Below, one piece after another: positions 1 to 15,827 of a stretch of DNA of 20,534 nucleotides (positions are counted from its first letter, which is position 1; each line of letters starts with the position of its first letter). Source of the stretch: a virus; IMG/VR virus record IMGVR_UViG_3300025122_000209, positions 1 to 20,534 of that record; one strand, written 5' to 3'. The notes beneath the pieces are model-generated. The model was not told the DNA's origin. It ran no database searches and saw only the letters and a list, made by a program, of their open reading frames with translations. The position numbers and the translations under genes were made by a program.

Positions 1-11
1 TTGATTGACAT
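1..11 (-). CDS. 5' end of a further minus-strand gene (partial)
   Basis: Only the start is in the window: an ATG at 11-9 followed by codons for Ser and Ile, then the edge. It is called because a strong Shine-Dalgarno sequence (AGGAG, 25-21, inside an A-rich stretch) sits nine bases upstream, in the same layout as the other genes here. The product cannot be named from three codons. It follows the tubulin-like gene with a 68-base gap, so it may belong to the same transcript or have its own promoter. Confidence 0.6.
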
Positions 12-79: not shown

Positions 80-946
80 CTATAAATTTAAATCTTTGTC
101 AAGCCTAAACTTGTTATTTTGTACCACAGTGCTGTTCAACAAACTAAATGCATAGATGTCATTGTAACTTGTTGAAAAAACTCCATAGCTCATCTTCATT
201 TTATCATGTTGTTTTTGTTCTTTTAATTGCTCTTCGATCTTTTTTAATAATGTTCCATCGGTTTGTAATATTTTTTCAGGTACTCCATAATAGTATCTCT
301 TTTCGCGTGGAATGTCAAGATCAAAAAATTGTTTTTCTTCACCGGTTTCATAGTTTAATAAACTAAAAGTTGACATCCTTGCAGTCTCCACAAAAGGTGC
401 AAATGTATCAGTCTCTGCTTCTGAATTATTCAATACATTCATCATGTGTATTGTATGTACAATTAATTCATTTAATTTATTAAAATGCTCTCGGATGGGC
501 GTATCTCCAATAATTTTAGCTACTTCTGTGTTATCCACCAGATATATTCTTTCAAGCAGCGCGCTGCGCGCGTATTCTTGGAGCACATGAAAGATAACAT
601 TATCATTAAGAATTTTTAATTCGGAAAGTAATAAACGATTTGGTTTGATATATAATACGCTTATTTGACATTTATGTTTTATTTGCTCTAAAATTCTAAG
701 TATTGAGGCCGAAATGAAACCGCAGCTAGTTACGACTAAAATATCATCTTTTACGTCCTTAAGAAAGCGCTTTAAATTCGGACAATTTTCTTCATATTTT
801 TCAGGGTGATCATATTCTGGAAAGTTATAGCTGCGCGCAGCTTCCTTAAGGTGGGTGTCTATCTTATATATTTTATATTGAGGGTATTGAGAAAACTTAT
901 CAGCAATATTGCAACCCGCTTTTCCTAATCCAATTATCGTTTGCAT
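80..946 (-). CDS. Divergent FtsZ/tubulin-like protein
   Basis: This 288-residue protein follows the order of elements in the FtsZ/tubulin GTPase domain. It has a glycine loop after the first strand (IIGLGKAGCN, residues 4-13) and an acidic strand end (IDT, 29-31). A hydrophobic strand then leads to the T4-loop position (DILVVTSCGFISAS, 68-81), followed by a KP motif (101-102), a helix and D/N strand end (LVDNTEV, 136-142) and FNKLNELI (155-162), which resembles FtsZ helix 7. DTFAPFVET (180-188) sits where the synergy loop would be. The GGGTG(S/T)G signature is absent, so GTP binding is doubtful. The C-terminal third is unassigned and the chain is shorter than FtsZ. It is translationally coupled to the polymerase upstream (TAATG overlap). 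Phage tubulins are known (PhuZ, TubZ), but this one is much more divergent. A Rossmann NAD-binding protein is the main alternative. Confidence 0.5.
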   Translation of the reverse strand: MQTIIGLGKAGCNIADKFSQYPQYKIYKIDTHLKEAARSYNFPEYDHPEKYEENCPNLKRFLKDVKDDILVVTSCGFISASILRILEQIKHKCQISVLYIKPNRLLLSELKILNDNVIFHVLQEYARSALLERIYLVDNTEVAKIIGDTPIREHFNKLNELIVHTIHMMNVLNNSEAETDTFAPFVETARMSTFSLLNYETGEEKQFFDLDIPREKRYYYGVPEKILQTDGTLLKKIEEQLKEQKQHDKMKMSYGVFSTSYNDIYAFSLLNSTVVQNNKFRLDKDLNL

Positions 947-2130
947 TATTTCACATTCATCCTTTTCATCTCGCCAAAGTTTTTGCCGCCGAAAACATTT
1001 ACTTTAAATTTGCCTAACTCTGTAATTGCAAATTCTTCTTTTATTTCATTTACCATTGCCTCGTCCTCTTCGGCCAAGTCGATTATAAGAGAATCGTGCA
1101 AACAAAATGCGACTTGAGATCTCTTGTCTTTAAGTAGTTTCCAAACTTTAATCATTTGTCGAAGAAATAAATCAGCCGCCGTTGATTGAATAATATAATT
1201 TAAGGCGTGATGTTTGTCTGCTTCAATTTCTCTATTAAAATATGTTTTAATATGAGTTCCATCCCAATATTTTGTTAAAAGTTCTTCTCGATTATATTCT
1301 TGGCTTGGTAGATGGTCTTTTGATTCTGGATTATATAGCCACGCAAATATTCTCTTTTTTGCTTCGTCTCTAGTACCTGTTCCTTTATACACATTTTTTA
1401 AATTCCATTCATGTAAATCCTCTTTTGGCTGTTCCCTCCCTAAAAGTGCCAACATTACACGAAGCTCTGCGGCATTATAATCTAACTCTAAAAACCACTT
1501 ATTATTGGGTTTTAAAATTATTCTATATTCTTTGTCCATTGTTAAGATTGGAAAAGCTTTTGACGTGAGTCTTCCAGTTTTAGTACCTTGCATGTTATAT
1601 GTAATGTAAGGGGACGTTTTGTTTATTTTTTTAAGAAATTTCCGCACTTTAAATTCATGGCGGCGAGCATCCAAGGGAGCTGCGTTTATATTTAATTTTG
1701 TATTCTTGATCTCTGTTAAAACTTTTATAAGGTCGACCATGAATTCATAATTATGCGGTTTTTTAAAATTTGAAAAAATATAGGCGCAAATTTTGTCTTT
1801 GATTCGTCCATAGTTTAATAGAAAGTGTGGGGGAACAAGATCAAAAAAACAATGTTCGTTAAGATCCAACTTTGCTTCGCAAGTCGCTCTATGGAAGGCC
1901 TCTAGTTTTTTATTTACACTTTCCCATTCTTTTCTCAGGTGGTCAGGGCATATTTCATTTAAATCCTTTCCACCACAATAGTATTTTGCATACTCAATGC
2001 GTTTATCCCGCAGTGTTTCAGAGTAATCCCATGTTTTTGTAAGAGAGGGCGGTATCTTGTCTTTGTGAATTTTGTCTTTTACACAAATGGCCACGCATTT
2101 CTTTTTGTCATCAAATGTTTGAAAAATCAT
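946..2130 (-). CDS. Minimal family-A DNA polymerase (polymerase domain only)
   Basis: This 394-residue protein carries the family-A polymerase motifs in order. TGRLTS is at 185-190, and motif A DYNAAELR has catalytic D217 and E222. Motif B on the O helix is R254-x3-K258-x3-F262-x3-Y266. QSTAAD is at 315-320, and motif C HDS has catalytic D346, with the usual Glu replaced by Ser. F262 occupies the position of E. coli Pol I Phe762. The first 170 residues show no 3'-5' exonuclease motifs that I can recognise, and the spacing from motif A to motif B and on to QSTAAD is shorter than in Pol I, so the fingers look trimmed. T7-type enzymes are about 700 residues, so this is a polymerase core only. 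It starts four bases after the upstream stop with a weak RBS and overlaps the next gene by one base. It presumably synthesises or repairs phage DNA in the infected cell. The family call is firm. Confidence 0.9.
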   Translation of the reverse strand: MIFQTFDDKKKCVAICVKDKIHKDKIPPSLTKTWDYSETLRDKRIEYAKYYCGGKDLNEICPDHLRKEWESVNKKLEAFHRATCEAKLDLNEHCFFDLVPPHFLLNYGRIKDKICAYIFSNFKKPHNYEFMVDLIKVLTEIKNTKLNINAAPLDARRHEFKVRKFLKKINKTSPYITYNMQGTKTGRLTSKAFPILTMDKEYRIILKPNNKWFLELDYNAAELRVMLALLGREQPKEDLHEWNLKNVYKGTGTRDEAKKRIFAWLYNPESKDHLPSQEYNREELLTKYWDGTHIKTYFNREIEADKHHALNYIIQSTAADLFLRQMIKVWKLLKDKRSQVAFCLHDSLIIDLAEEDEAMVNEIKEEFAITELGKFKVNVFGGKNFGEMKRMNVK

Positions 2131-2134
2131 CTAT

Positions 2135-3562
2135 CTAATATTTAGTGCTTTTAGTTGTCGGCATTTTTTCTTTTTTCATTATAGCAGGCATTTTATAAGA
2201 ATACAAGCCCGAACTAGTTGAATCACCAAAATAGTTTATCCTAAAAGGAGGCACTTTGTCAATAGGTATTTCTTTATATATTTTTGTTTGTTTGGTTACG
2301 TGGCCGATGTATGCGACGGCGGCCTCAATGCCAAAAGTCTTATGAAAATTAGATGCCTTTTTCAGTACTGCCTTAAGCTCTCTTGGCACGTACTTAATAT
2401 TACTTTCCGCTAATCTTAATTTAAAATAAAACTCTAAAAAATATTCATCATCATATTGTTGTTTAAATGTTTGTGGGAGGGGTTCGTTGGTTGGCCAGTC
2501 GAGGGGGATGTCGCCATCATCAAAATAAATAGAAACCTTTTCTCTGAAGCCTTCCTTGAAAATCGTTTTGTATCTGCTTGAATTAATAGGGGCCCACGTT
2601 GCATTCATGCAATTTTTCGCTTCATAAATTGTACCATAAGTACTGGTCTTGGGTTCTGTTATCAAAGATACATACATATTCCATAGACGCGCTTTAATAC
2701 TTTCATAAGAAAAATATTCGCTTTCATAAAAATAAGTGGAAAAAACATTATTATCTTCTAAGCCGACGCCAAAACGCTCCATGTAGCCGGTCGGATGTGG
2801 TTCATTATCGGGCCAAATGCCAGTCATAGGAGGCGAATCCATATTTGCAGCTATCCTCCACGGGGCATTTTTATCCACATAAAATCCAAAATTTGCTGCT
2901 ACTTTTAAATATCTATTAAAAGAAGGTGCCGAAAGAAATCGTTTATAATTAACTAAATCATCGCCATGAGGCAAATTTTCCAATTCAATAAAAAGCCCAC
3001 TAATAGCGTTTGGGCAGAATGGAGAGACAATAAAGGCAGTCTTGGTAACAGGAAGCTCATTTGACATTGCTTTAGTATAATGTAAAAATTCTCGCGTTAA
3101 ATCGTCGAAATTTCTAATTTTTCTATTTATCCTTGGCACATTCATATATTCATTGGCGAATATTTCAAAGACGTTTTTAACAAAATGATCGTTGTAGGCC
3201 TGATGTACATTTACTAGTGCTGATTTAGGTATAAAAGAAGAAAACATATCAGTAAAAAGCCTTTGGTTGGAGGCCATAGCCCTGTCCATAAAATTTTTAA
3301 AATCTCGAAAAGCGACTGCTACAAAATCTAAAGCTAACATCAAACCTGCCCCAGGTAACTGAGTCATATTAATCTCGGAGGGATATATGGGTGTGCCATG
3401 TATATCTACTTTGCCATAAAAAGGTTTTTCATATAAAAGATCCAAAGGGGTTAGGTCGAGAAGACGAGAGAAAGACTTTTCTCTATATAAAAGCCGCTGC
3501 TCAAACATTTGTGGCTCAACCGTGGAGTTGTTAGCGTACGGCGGGAGGATGTTGTTGGCCAT
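2135..3562 (-). CDS. Unrecognised protein, probable virion component
   Basis: I do not recognise this 475-residue protein. It is rich in aromatic residues (many Tyr and Phe) and in Pro and Asn, has no signal peptide or clear membrane segment, and ends in a lysine-rich tail. It contains proline/tryptophan-rich stretches such as WPDNEPHPTGY and LDWPTNEPLP. The gene starts after an 82-base gap behind the hub-like gene, with AAGGG about 12 bases upstream of ATG, and ends four bases before the polymerase start. Lying between baseplate and replication genes, it could be a structural protein or a tail-fibre or baseplate attachment protein. That rests on location alone. Confidence 0.55.
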   Translation of the reverse strand: MANNILPPYANNSTVEPQMFEQRLLYREKSFSRLLDLTPLDLLYEKPFYGKVDIHGTPIYPSEINMTQLPGAGLMLALDFVAVAFRDFKNFMDRAMASNQRLFTDMFSSFIPKSALVNVHQAYNDHFVKNVFEIFANEYMNVPRINRKIRNFDDLTREFLHYTKAMSNELPVTKTAFIVSPFCPNAISGLFIELENLPHGDDLVNYKRFLSAPSFNRYLKVAANFGFYVDKNAPWRIAANMDSPPMTGIWPDNEPHPTGYMERFGVGLEDNNVFSTYFYESEYFSYESIKARLWNMYVSLITEPKTSTYGTIYEAKNCMNATWAPINSSRYKTIFKEGFREKVSIYFDDGDIPLDWPTNEPLPQTFKQQYDDEYFLEFYFKLRLAESNIKYVPRELKAVLKKASNFHKTFGIEAAVAYIGHVTKQTKIYKEIPIDKVPPFRINYFGDSTSSGLYSYKMPAIMKKEKMPTTKSTKY

Positions 3563-11255: not shown

Positions 11256-11993
11256 TTAATAGCCGCGAACAAGCCATCTCGAACCTTTGTTCTCCCAATT
11301 GCTAAGGTTACTATTTTGGGCGCTGGCTGCGGCGTCTAACCTTCGTTCTAATTCTCTTTCACTCCAGCCTTGTGTAAATTTGAAGTTTTTATACGCAAAA
11401 GTTAATTCTATCGTGGCCAAAGTTTCCGCGCTGTAGTCGATGTCAGAAAAATTTACTCCTTTCAAAATTGGCTTGTATATGCTCCATTCGCCGTTAGCGC
11501 CTCCTCGACCGTCCAGTTCGAGGATCGTGATAACTTGGGGAGTTCCTTCTGCATAGCCATCAAGGAATCGCTGATAAGTTGCGTTTTCAAATCCATCTCG
11601 ATGGCCCAGAGCAGCCTCTTCAAATGTCCATGTTTTCTGCATCATAGACAGGGCCGCTTGAATATGGCCTGCCGTGTCAGCGCCCTGTGTGCCAAACACG
11701 TTTACGTCCGCCAAAGTAACTGTAAGGTCCTTTGTTGTAAATTTCTGTGTTGGATAATCTATTTTCGCGTAGTCGCCGGAATGTAGTTGGTATTCGCCAA
11801 CTTGAGTCTCTATATCGGTGTATCCAGGGCGGCTAAAGCTTTTAACCATGTAGGGAGGAAACCCATTAAAGTCTGATCCCCCAAACATTAGATCTCCAAA
11901 TAACAATATGGCTTCAAAAGATCTTTTTGGTCTTACACTGGAGTTGCTCCAAAATTGCCACATCCCGGGGGAAAATATTTTACGATCAGCCAT
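11256..11993 (-). CDS. Tail tube protein, second paralogue
   Basis: This 245-residue protein is of the gp19 tube type. It shares a template with the gene just upstream: FWS plus a short run then PKRSF (about 14-26), a KDLTVTLAD strand (88-96), and W-S-I-Y-x5-KGVNFSDIDYSAETLATIELTFAY near 168-197. Tube proteins polymerise into the rigid inner channel of the contractile tail. It has an extra C-terminal tail of about 45 residues, charged at first (SERELERRLDAA) and then Asn/Trp-rich. Only seven bases separate it from the first tube gene, with AGGT as RBS. The two copies have clearly diverged, so they may form different parts of the tube or one may be a minor end protein. Confidence 0.75.
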   Translation of the reverse strand: MADRKIFSPGMWQFWSNSSVRPKRSFEAILLFGDLMFGGSDFNGFPPYMVKSFSRPGYTDIETQVGEYQLHSGDYAKIDYPTQKFTTKDLTVTLADVNVFGTQGADTAGHIQAALSMMQKTWTFEEAALGHRDGFENATYQRFLDGYAEGTPQVITILELDGRGGANGEWSIYKPILKGVNFSDIDYSAETLATIELTFAYKNFKFTQGWSERELERRLDAAASAQNSNLSNWENKGSRWLVRGY

Positions 11994-12000
11994 TATTTAC

Positions 12001-12633
12001 CTATCCAAAAAGATCCGTAGTTTTTTCTATAGAACCCATCTCTTTTTTATACTTTTCAATGGTCTTCGCCTGTGGCAGCCCGCTGGTCATAACAGGTTTA
12101 GGAACTGGGTTTTCTGGCGTGCCATCGCCTTCGTATTGGGCCCAATCATATGTAAAGGTTAACTCAACGTTTAACATCTCTTCGGTGTTGTAATCTAGGG
12201 CACCAAAATTAACCTTTGAAAGCCACGCATTATGTAAAGTCCAGCGCTCAATTTGCTGACCCTTTCCATCTAATTGCGAGATTGCTGGGACTCCTACGGC
12301 AAGGTTTGAGTCTTTCTTTGTCATGGAAATCGATGCATCTGCTTCGGTAGTAGGAATAGCATAACCAGAGGCCTGCAAAATTTTAACTATTTTAGAAGAA
12401 GCGTCTGGATATACGGGGTCGACCAATGTTACTGTAACATCCTCCCACGTTACTCGGCCGGGATATTTAAAAGTGTGAGCAATATACTGGTGATTAACCG
12501 GCGCTACAGAAAAGTTCGGTTTTCCCACCTTTGTAATAACATACGTAGGAATATGATCAAATATCAATACCCAGCGAAAAGATCGCTTTGGATCAATTGT
12601 TGTCGAACTCCAGAAATTGGTCTTCTCGGCCAT
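12001..12633 (-). CDS. Tail tube protein, first paralogue
   Basis: This 210-residue protein of the gp19-like tube type lies directly after the sheath gene, the usual place for the main tube subunit. Shared elements with the next gene are FWSSTTIDPKRSFRWVLIF (7-25), WEDVTVTLVDP (59-69), ERWTLHNAWLSKVNFGALDY (129-148) and LNVELTFTYDW (153-163). The remainder after about 165 is Pro/Glu/Lys-rich. AAGGAG, about ten bases before the ATG, is a strong RBS, in keeping with a high-copy product. Sheath and tube subunits are normally made in equal number, so coupled transcription with the sheath gene makes sense. Which paralogue forms the bulk of the tube cannot be decided from sequence. Confidence 0.8.
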   Translation of the reverse strand: MAEKTNFWSSTTIDPKRSFRWVLIFDHIPTYVITKVGKPNFSVAPVNHQYIAHTFKYPGRVTWEDVTVTLVDPVYPDASSKIVKILQASGYAIPTTEADASISMTKKDSNLAVGVPAISQLDGKGQQIERWTLHNAWLSKVNFGALDYNTEEMLNVELTFTYDWAQYEGDGTPENPVPKPVMTSGLPQAKTIEKYKKEMGSIEKTTDLFG

Positions 12634-12686: not shown

Positions 12687-15600
12687 TTAGTCCTCAAAAG
12701 ATGCGCCTGAGTCCGTAATAATGAAATCAATTGCGATATACTCAATTGCACGTGCTGGCTTTATGTATAGCTTTGCATACAAAATATTTCTATCGATGAG
12801 ATCTGGAGTTGTAGTTGTCTCATCTAAAATTAACTTATACTCTGTAATACCCAAGCCTGCTTTCACATCACTAAGGAAAGGATTAACTTTTGATTTAAAT
12901 CTATTCCACGTTACTTGAACATTTTGATCAAACAAAATTGTTGCAGCAAACCGTGAAACTTGCTTTTTCAAGAAAAGAACAAGTCGTCGAACATTAATTC
13001 TATCAAGGGCTGAAGGAGTTAGCTGTAAAGTTTTTTGACCAAAGATTACAATTCCTTCTGCTGGGAACGAAGCGATTGGATTAATGTTCACCTCGTAAAG
13101 CCTATCTCGATCTTTTGAAGTAAGGCGCTGTTCCACTCCAACAACTGGGATGCCGGCTGCACGATTTGCGCTCAGGCCGCCGCGAGTAAACCCTGCGGGA
13201 GCAAACCAAAGTTGCGATGTTGCTTCTCCATAAGCCATCGCACCCAGAGCAACGACAGAGGGGGGAACCCAGAGCGTAGAACCGTTGATGGTATCGCGAA
13301 TTTGAACCCATGGGTAATAAGCGCACCCATAACTACTATTAACCTGCAAGTCATTTCTTTTGTTAGTAATTACTGCATCTAGGTCGCCTGCACGAGCTGC
13401 TCTTGCGCTGCTGTTTTGGGCTGCTGGAGTGTATCCACCTTTAAGGTCAATAATTGCCAAAGCATCCGCACGACTTTCGCACATCTCAACCAACTTGGTA
13501 TTAAGTTCGTTGTCAGTAATACCAGGCATCGCCACCAAATTATATTCGACAACTTCTGGGTCGCGTAAAGAATCAATAGCCACATTAACAGAATTGAACG
13601 CCGAGTTATTCTCTTGGGTGAGGGTGGTGCTGGTGGTAGTATCTAAAATTCTATTGTTAAATGGATCTTTTTCTGTGATGTCCACTCCGTCGGCGCCGCC
13701 ATGTAGAACTGTTGTAAAACGATTCCAACCTGCGGTTGGGCCGCCTTTGTTGACATCAATGACATTTTCGTAAGAAGCGGTTAACGCACCTCGACTGCCG
13801 TCCGCGGCGGCGACCTCTCCGGAGCCAGTGTGTGCTGTATACGAGAACCCCGACGCGCGGGATCCGGATTCATATACTGCGTCATTGCCATACTTAAGGA
13901 CATAGCCTGACGAGGAAACATTGATATTTCTCACCTCATCGAGAGAAAAGATAAAAGAATCTTCGGTGAGGTTAGTAGTCGATGCATCATGACCATTTAA
14001 GTCCTCGCATTTTGTTCTTAAGTGATCGAAGACGCTCGCATTAAATGTATTCGTAGAACCGAAATTAGTGTCTACGCCGAAATAAGCATCTTTAGGATCC
14101 GATTGTGGACCACGAGAAGCGGTTGCGCGCAGATATAAGCTCGGGTATTTAAACCTAGCGGACACCACATTGCCAGAAAGCGAAGCGCTAATTGTTCCAA
14201 AAAAGCCTCCGTGGCCGGCCGGCGAGTCGCTTCCCGATTCCACAAAAATTTGTGCATCGGCGGTTGGGATACTCATTTTCGCTGTGCCGGCACCGGAAAC
14301 ATTGTAGAGTACGGCGGAGGCGCCAGTCGCGCTGTCGGCGCCCGATACGGCAAAGCCAAGATAACGCGGGGGACCATAAACACCGAAAGGCAAGCACTCT
14401 GCAGTTGTGGCGGCGCGATCTACATCTTCATCCATCACCACGTAAATCCAGTCAGAGCGGTTAAAGTGATCTCCAAAGGCGCGATATCGACGATCTGTGT
14501 CATCCCATTGCTCAGTTTTATTGCCGATCTTTCGAGCAAGGTAATTTGACGATCCCGGATTTAAGTTGCAATTATTATACTGTTCTATAATTTTAGGTGC
14601 AGCATCTGTATCGTCTATGTGCCGTACCACTACACTGAAACTACCGTAAGGATTGTTATTAGGATCGTTAGATGCTTTGATATCTTGGATGGAAATTTTG
14701 ATTTTACGTTGTGTTTCTTCTCCCAACTCGCGTGCCGCGAAGCGGAATAATTTTTGCATGTCCCCGGGGTAATAAGAGCCGGTGGATCCTCCAAAATCTT
14801 GTGAAATGAACCATCCTGTTTTGGCAAATTGGCCACTGGGGCTTTTAGATTTGCCCATACGAAAGTCGGCACCATCGGTACCGCCTAGTGGTGTAGCCAA
14901 TCTTAAAATAACTCCATATGTTTGGCCGGGAAGCGTTCCACTTACACCTAGGGGGCCGCCGGCGCCGTTAGTACCCAGGAAGCTCTTGACGCTTCCTTCA
15001 AAAGATTCACCAAGCCAGAAAGAAGATGAAGCATTGCCAGCTAACTCGGGATTAGTCAACGTTGGGTTTGTATTAAACACTTTTCTGATAAAACGTGGTG
15101 AATCGGAATTAAAATCAAAAGAGCTATCTTGAATAACTGTACCGGCTTGATTTGCAACCACCACTTTAAATGTGGGGCCAGTGTCAACCGCCCGCATAAA
15201 CGAACGGTATCCTTTCCCGAAAATCCCCTTGTCTGTGGGGCCATCCTGGAGGTCTACTGTTTGGCCAGATAATTGAATATTTCCACCCTGTAGATACCAT
15301 ATGGCAGCTAGCGTGCCGGTCAATTGACGAGACCACCGGGAATTGTGGTACGACGACGACAGGATATGGCTGGCGGCGTTGTCGTTGGCGTATGGGTCTT
15401 CACAAATGAAGAGGCCATATGCACCACCATTAGTGGCATTGGAGGTGGTCGATGAGACATTGACTGTCTTCCAACCGGCGTACCCGGACTTTATAGTAGC
15501 CTCAGAGTTGGTTTGACCCAACAGCCGAACTGCCGTAACTGGAGAATTATTTCGAAGCCATGCTTGCGCAGCATATGCTGCATAAGTTGGGGCAGTAAAA

Positions 15601-15827
15601 TTTCCATATCGCCACACGTCGCCGCCTTGGCCTCCTGGGGATGGTTTGCCAAAAATATCAATGAAATCTACAAAAGAATCAACTTGAACTGGCTTGAGGG
15701 CCGGCCCTTGAGAAAATCTACCAATTATTGCGGGCCCTATCTCTGCAGGCTGACTTGGTAACTGTGAATTATCAATTTCCGTAATAAAAATTCCGGGAGA
15801 TATAAACTTAAACTTTCTATATGACAT
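12687..15827 (-). CDS. Tail sheath protein (oversized)
   Basis: This contractile tail sheath has 1046 residues against 659 in T4 gp18. The N-terminus FISPGIFITEID (8-19) is the classical sheath opening (PGVYxxExD). The C-terminal 150 residues are also characteristic: YEVNINPIASFPAEGIVIFG followed by QKTL, INVRRLVLFLKK, LFDQNVQVTWNRFKS, and a closing beta strand with ARAIEYIAIDFIITD. These ends carry the conserved core that contracts around the tube. The long middle (roughly 130-800) is Gly/Ser/Asn-rich with many beta-type stretches and probably forms inserted domains on the outside of the sheath. A clear AAGGAG RBS precedes the ATG. The upstream leader has the CTATTTAT motif. The sheath call is secure; the domain borders are estimates. 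Confidence 0.93.
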   Translation of the reverse strand: MSYRKFKFISPGIFITEIDNSQLPSQPAEIGPAIIGRFSQGPALKPVQVDSFVDFIDIFGKPSPGGQGGDVWRYGNFTAPTYAAYAAQAWLRNNSPVTAVRLLGQTNSEATIKSGYAGWKTVNVSSTTSNATNGGAYGLFICEDPYANDNAASHILSSSYHNSRWSRQLTGTLAAIWYLQGGNIQLSGQTVDLQDGPTDKGIFGKGYRSFMRAVDTGPTFKVVVANQAGTVIQDSSFDFNSDSPRFIRKVFNTNPTLTNPELAGNASSSFWLGESFEGSVKSFLGTNGAGGPLGVSGTLPGQTYGVILRLATPLGGTDGADFRMGKSKSPSGQFAKTGWFISQDFGGSTGSYYPGDMQKLFRFAARELGEETQRKIKISIQDIKASNDPNNNPYGSFSVVVRHIDDTDAAPKIIEQYNNCNLNPGSSNYLARKIGNKTEQWDDTDRRYRAFGDHFNRSDWIYVVMDEDVDRAATTAECLPFGVYGPPRYLGFAVSGADSATGASAVLYNVSGAGTAKMSIPTADAQIFVESGSDSPAGHGGFFGTISASLSGNVVSARFKYPSLYLRATASRGPQSDPKDAYFGVDTNFGSTNTFNASVFDHLRTKCEDLNGHDASTTNLTEDSFIFSLDEVRNINVSSSGYVLKYGNDAVYESGSRASGFSYTAHTGSGEVAAADGSRGALTASYENVIDVNKGGPTAGWNRFTTVLHGGADGVDITEKDPFNNRILDTTTSTTLTQENNSAFNSVNVAIDSLRDPEVVEYNLVAMPGITDNELNTKLVEMCESRADALAIIDLKGGYTPAAQNSSARAARAGDLDAVITNKRNDLQVNSSYGCAYYPWVQIRDTINGSTLWVPPSVVALGAMAYGEATSQLWFAPAGFTRGGLSANRAAGIPVVGVEQRLTSKDRDRLYEVNINPIASFPAEGIVIFGQKTLQLTPSALDRINVRRLVLFLKKQVSRFAATILFDQNVQVTWNRFKSKVNPFLSDVKAGLGITEYKLILDETTTTPDLIDRNILYAKLYIKPARAIEYIAIDFIITDSGASFED

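Follow-up and report, generated by a model that had tools for sequence, protein, structure and literature searches.

A predicted tubulin/FtsZ-fold protein with altered nucleotide loops, encoded behind a short family A DNA polymerase in a Far-T4-like phage fragment

The window analysed here, a stretch of 20,534 nucleotides from an IMG/VR viral record, carries on its minus strand a gene whose product, according to structural models, almost certainly has the tubulin/FtsZ fold and whose homologues lie directly behind the gene of a short, divergent DNA polymerase. In our best explanation, to which we give a probability of about one half, the protein would be a non-hydrolysing tubulin-fold scaffold or an accessory protein of phage replication. 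The phage tubulins known so far have been described from jumbo phages or partition systems, as filaments driven by GTP. In the family described here the guanine pocket ranges from seemingly intact to absent while selection on the gene stays strong, a natural series that makes the role of a tubulin without GTP testable. The decay of the GTP machinery in a protein that is kept points to tubulin as a structural part and not a GTP-driven motor; divPolA1, a polymerase still unexplained, also gains in it a candidate partner. A literature search, with bioRxiv and most subscription papers outside its scope, returned no report of the family.

A sequence-only reading had proposed a divergent FtsZ/tubulin-like protein at this end of the window without naming a strand. 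The reading frame lies on the minus strand (Table 1), and the plus strand across the same positions is interrupted by many stops. The window protein aligns without gaps to eleven homologues of 77-89% identity, the dN/dS of the gene is 0.04-0.09 and its homologous loci number more than 200; because of these findings, and because separate predictions for two members gave the tubulin fold and structure searches recovered it, a chance ORF is ruled out. The residues VTSCGFIS read at the T4 position were confirmed, and so was the FtsZ/tubulin order of motifs: the glycine loop is followed by IDT (residues 29-31), a strand leading into the T4 position (67-73), KP (101-102), the D/N strand end (138-139) and a long helix corresponding to H7 (151-173). 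In one homologous locus (L037:407-1185) a frameshift breaks the reading frame, which may be a sequencing error or a real break.

Table 1. Positions in the window of the tubulin-fold gene, its putative functional elements and the adjoining genes.
Feature	Position	Strand	Basis
Predicted tubulin/FtsZ-fold protein, 288 aa	80..946	minus	ATG at 946, stop 82-80; AlphaFold2, fold matches, dN/dS
T1 loop GLGKAGCN, residues 6-13 (GxGxxG, retained)	908..931	minus	G8 in 148/150 and G11 in 139/150 dereplicated members
T4 (glycine) loop position, residues 72-79, VTSCGFIS	710..733	minus	alignments
End of helix H5, residues 122-128, LQEYARS	563..583	minus	Q123 in 150/150, R127 in 149/150, S128 in 149/150 members
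N139, putative equivalent of the FtsZ guanine-contact Asn after S6 (IPND)	530..532	minus	profile alignment; co-retained with N159
N159, putative equivalent of the FtsZ guanine-contact Asn/Asp in H7	470..472	minus	profile alignment; co-retained with N139
T7 (synergy) loop position, residues 170-178, NVLNNSEAE; Asn kept	413..439	minus	profile alignment
Short family A DNA polymerase (divPolA1 type), 394 aa	946..2130	minus	PF00476, E 3.4e-17; alignment A4, invariant palm motifs
Start of the next gene, ATG at 11-9, preceded by AAGGAG	1..11	minus	gp32-like ssDNA-binding protein in relatives

The AlphaFold2 model of the window protein, obtained with an input alignment of 62 homologues (A2), reached a pLDDT of 92.8 and a pTM of 0.90, and that of the distant homologue L195 reached 96.1 and 0.92. 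A Foldseek search of the PDB with the window model returned FtsZ and TubZ, with an E value of 3.9e-13 to FtsZ. In VIA-align comparisons the top match was CetZ 3zid (Z 24.8, rmsd 3.1 over 265 residues), and TubZ 4ei7 gave a Z of 24.0 over 284 residues and tubulin and FtsZ a Z of about 22, the matches extending over 264-284 residues; the L195 model gave similar values, again within the tubulin superfamily. Across the whole chain, the models and fold matches comprise a GTPase-type Rossmann domain, the long core helix H7 and a C-terminal activation domain. The predicted fold is that of tubulin, FtsZ, CetZ and TubZ and not that of a plain Rossmann dehydrogenase, the outcome that the sequence-only reading had set against its own proposal. 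The model is compact: short elements between S2 and S4 replace H2, T3 and H3 of FtsZ, the C-terminal helix H11 is absent, and the chain ends after a strand (265-272) and a short disordered tail; the L195 model has a short C-terminal helix.

Sequence profiles barely detect this kinship. The Tubulin profile PF00091 matched, below its curated cut-off, 4 of 62 members in one hmmscan (best E 0.0073) and 2 of 97 in another (best E 0.019), so that the profile check suggested earlier gave no significant match and alone would have failed. Profile searches of PDB sequences found no tubulin, a tblastn search of the phage record collection with the protein gave no match, and the family is recognised by neither Pfam nor PHROGs. 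The viral structure library BFVD contained remote phage FtsZ/tubulin matches of 10-14% identity and no close match.

In the alignments the loop at the T4 position is conserved in its altered form, a point that the earlier reading had left to an alignment of homologues. It reads TSCGxISA, with small variations, in the subclade of the window protein, where it is one residue shorter than in the rest of the family, and GSGx[IV]SGA in most members, as against GGGTGTGA in FtsZ; the signature GGGTG[ST]G is absent from the window protein and from the family, in which the central Gly is replaced by Ile or Val. The homologue L195 has a GGGK loop. Together with the fold searches, this conservation supports the proposed divergent kinship with FtsZ and tubulin and the degeneration of the GTP loop. 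At the T7 position, N170 falls near the Asn of the FtsZ loop in the profile alignment. Positions 172, 174 and 175 are acidic in none of the 150 members, nor are the positions aligned with D209 and D212 of FtsZ, in a register set by a weak profile alignment, and about 55% of the members, the window protein included (E176), have an acid at position 176, with no T7 column higher; judged from these columns, the family appears to lack a conserved acidic T7 catalytic residue. The altered T4 loop and the aspartate positions that are never acidic suggest that GTP hydrolysis has been lost or is weak, and the acid at position 176 indicates that residual hydrolysis may persist in the family.

The residues expected to contact guanine were counted in 150 dereplicated sequences (<80% identity), with homologues fetched solely through the neighbouring polymerase, by which the retrieval bias of the first scans was avoided. 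In FtsZ and tubulin the residues equivalent to N139, N159 and the T4 loop form part of the pocket for the guanine nucleotide. Both N139 and N159 are kept in 116/150 members, among them the window protein. N139 is missing in 34/150, and N159 is missing in 32 of those 34 and in none of the 116 others; likewise, the third Gly of the T4 loop is replaced by Asp or Glu in 28/34 members without N139, against 1/116 with it. In the first set (98 sequences) the strongest covariation with N139 was found at positions 159, 76 and 10, all of them pocket positions, and in the larger set position 159 covaries with N139 most by far, while several non-pocket columns track clades. The Fisher values for the coupling (1e-30 and 2e-23) are inflated, since they ignore kinship: the tree has only about 7 changes, with 3 independent pairs on supported branches and 7 in all, a number that does not suffice for a sign test that takes phylogeny into account. 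In nearly all of these pairings N159 and the T4 residue follow N139, and never in the opposite direction. By these counts most lineages retain the guanine-contact residues, and in others the residues have gone together.

The pocket-less proteins, to which L054 belongs, are under strong purifying selection and are not decaying, with an omega of 0.043 in one close pair and a pN of 0.074 against a pS of 0.78 in another pair. Q123, R127 and S128, at the end of H5, are essentially invariant in both the pocket-retaining and the pocket-less classes, which suggests that the conserved role is probably carried by a surface other than the nucleotide site. A longer invariant motif, FHVLQEY, seen in alignment A2, was discarded as an artefact of the retrieval bias of the scan pattern; only these three residues of the region hold in the sets fetched via the polymerase.

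In the window the polymerase gene and the tubulin-fold gene share a nucleotide, the TAA stop of the former running into the ATG of the latter (TAATG, 948-944). Among the testable loci, the tubulin-fold gene is found directly behind the divPolA1 gene in 204 of 205, a count that includes overlapping records of some contigs, and the gap is at most 60 nt in 159. The sole exception, L268, was rejected as a case of gene loss: other genes are inserted there and the contig ends early. The usual order in the first 78 loci places the tubulin-fold gene after baseplate genes, the gene of an unknown protein (about 380-560 aa) and the short PolA, and ahead of an MT-A70 methyltransferase or WYL_2-like gene (where present), a gp32-like SSB (complete in L011 and L110), RecA, a 5'-3' exonuclease, DnaB and ribonucleotide reductase. 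An operon position of this kind is linkage and not contact. In four loci (L110:8806-9369, L041, L047 and L053) an MT-A70 type methyltransferase gene is inserted directly behind the tubulin-fold gene, and a 475-aa protein with no Pfam or PHROG match (window 2135-3562) directly precedes divPolA1 in relatives (cluster 4, 61 loci).

The polymerase agrees in context and features with divPolA1 (PMC11348598): the palm motifs are kept, and a PolA-type exonuclease domain was not found in it. The published divPolA1 has a truncated thumb and a dead exonuclease, and the 14 genomes of that study have a regular polymerase besides it; genomes named there include MK892584, LR796625 and MK892766 (PMC11348598). 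Relatives of the window polymerase number at least 596 among the matches listed. Short exonuclease-less PolA genes of the divPolA1 type (window 946-2130, L162-L383) lie on at least several hundred IMG/VR contigs, compared with 14 genomes in PMC11348598. All ten contigs of 156-204 kb (G001-G006, G013-G016) encode a family C (DnaE-type) polymerase of about 1,150 aa, which is probably the main replicase, and in the long contigs neither a family B polymerase nor a PolA-type exonuclease domain was found; each of the ten has two unlike DNA polymerases. This finding rules out PolA as the sole replicase, and divPolA1 may therefore be a repair enzyme.

The window is part of a myovirus genome, with genes for a gp23-type major capsid protein, sheath, tube and baseplate and with the tubulin-fold gene at one end. 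The nearest neighbours of its capsid fragment are uncultured phage LR756508, Flavobacterium Immutovirus, Microcystis phage Mel-JY01, uncultured LR756511 and Rhodothermus phage RM378, by which the phage appears to belong to the neighbourhood of the Far-T4 phages (PMC4360716); with these it shares a gp23 capsid related to their reference RM378 and a modular T4-like genome, and no tubulin or FtsZ-like gene figures in their description (PMC4360716). The sister phages Immutovirus, Mel-JY01 and LR756508 have the same replication module but no tubulin-fold gene in it; in Immutovirus and relatives, SSB, RecA, exonuclease and helicase come after a short PolA that lacks an exonuclease. Tubulin is not mentioned in the divPolA1 study (PMC11348598). 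The gene probably arrived behind divPolA1 on one occasion and has been retained since, and the family is probably present on several hundred environmental phage contigs.

One copy of the tubulin-fold gene and no other recognisable tubulin were found per long contig (ten contigs in one check, 12 in another), and a heterodimer with a second, canonical tubulin was rejected, as 12 long contigs gave no PF00091 match and one family member each. Multisubunit RNA polymerase beta' (PF00623) was not found in the ten 156-204 kb contigs, which are possibly incomplete. With a single copy, no other tubulin and no beta', the setting is not that of the nucleus-forming phages of PhuZ.

Known systems resemble the family in part. 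PhuZ (phiKZ gp39) is likewise a phage-encoded tubulin fold with a glycine-rich T1 loop and an IDT region (PMC3678025, PMC4244570), and the profile pair gives a weak match over residues 1-98 only (E 5e-4). PhuZ has GTPase activity, forms filaments and uses a C-terminal helix and acidic tail in polymerisation (PMC3678025, PMC4244570), whereas the family has an altered T4 loop, no conserved T7 acid, no H11 or tail, no accompanying multisubunit RNA polymerase and another genomic place. TubZ, from type III partition of plasmids and phages, is, with CetZ, among the closest groups in whole-chain comparison; however, the window protein is about 100 residues shorter, its T4 and T7 loops are degenerate, and it is encoded in a replication operon, with polA, SSB, RecA and others as neighbours. 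The CetZ, FtsZ and FtsZl families share the fold, yet they carry the GGGTG[ST]G loop (PMC2875224) that is absent from the window protein, and identity to them is 10-16%. Because the defining features tested are missing, the protein is not a member of the PhuZ, TubZ or FtsZ families and represents a new family of a known fold.

In the explanation we prefer, that of a non-hydrolysing scaffold or accessory protein, a reduced tubulin-superfamily protein would have become a fixed component of the Far-T4-like replication module, made together with the exonuclease-dead divPolA1. Most members would bind guanine nucleotide as a structural or assembly cofactor and not as fuel; the window protein probably binds it too, less certainly so because of its shortened T4 loop. 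Another surface would bind replication partners and carry the conserved role, and head-to-tail self-assembly may occur alongside. Of the three guesses offered by the sequence-only reading, that of a non-hydrolysing or differently liganded relative fares best, given the altered T4 loop, the lack of a conserved T7 acid and the loss of the pocket as a unit. A new filament family, another of the three, is conceivable. A related reading, conceivable but to our mind short of probable, takes the fold as a nucleotide-free replication factor that partners the divergent polymerase, with nucleotide binding optional and discarded by several lineages.

A GTP-binding filament with an unusual but working active site, which would polymerise and position or segregate the DNA of the phage in the manner of PhuZ and TubZ, would suit the fold with its H7 and activation domain, the high similarity to TubZ, the pair N139 and N159 kept in 116/150 members, the weak profile similarity to PhuZ and E176 in the T7 loop of the window protein. 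We consider it unlikely, however, as the T4 signature and a conserved T7 acid are absent, conserved lineages have lost the pocket, the H11 and long acidic tail with which PhuZ and TubZ assemble are missing, and the RNA polymerase beta' of nucleus-forming phages was not found in the ten 156-204 kb contigs. Similarly doubtful is a monomeric subunit of divPolA1, a processivity factor or thumb substitute in which the fold is merely a scaffold and no filaments form. The near-obligate adjacency with its TAATG overlap would fit such a subunit, as would the conservation of pocket-less members and a polymerase whose thumb is truncated and whose exonuclease is dead (PMC11348598), but Immutovirus, Mel-JY01 and LR756508 have divPolA1 without the tubulin-fold gene, and other proteins of the operon are encoded almost equally close.

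The guess that the protein caps or inhibits host FtsZ, blocking division during infection, found no support and is very improbable: a tubulin fold could mimic the end of a protofilament, but in 204/205 loci the gene keeps its set place among the replication genes, which fits such a role poorly, and the nucleotide face has changed repeatedly although a cap would need to match a conserved host FtsZ. An NAD-binding Rossmann protein, tubulin-like at the N-terminus only, can practically be dismissed. Some members do match TrkA_N and saccharopine dehydrogenase in Pfam (best E 0.0023), but these matches are weak (E 0.002-0.1), the best whole-chain PDB matches all belong to the tubulin superfamily, and dinucleotide-fold proteins rank far below tubulins in the viral library.

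A motif scan for bacterial relatives found none. One locus found via the polymerase (L242, CP070664.1 2246049-2259236) places the polymerase, tubulin-fold, SSB and RecA genes inside a MAG of candidate division WOR-3; because stretches of N lie nearby, it is probably a phage fragment brought there by a scaffolding or binning artefact and not a host record. Elsewhere in the window, two adjacent genes (11256-11993 and 12001-12633) encode tail-tube (gp19-like) paralogues, one of them weakly recognisable, and the tail sheath protein encoded at 12687-15827 has 1046 aa, with its recognisable sheath domains confined to the C-terminal third.
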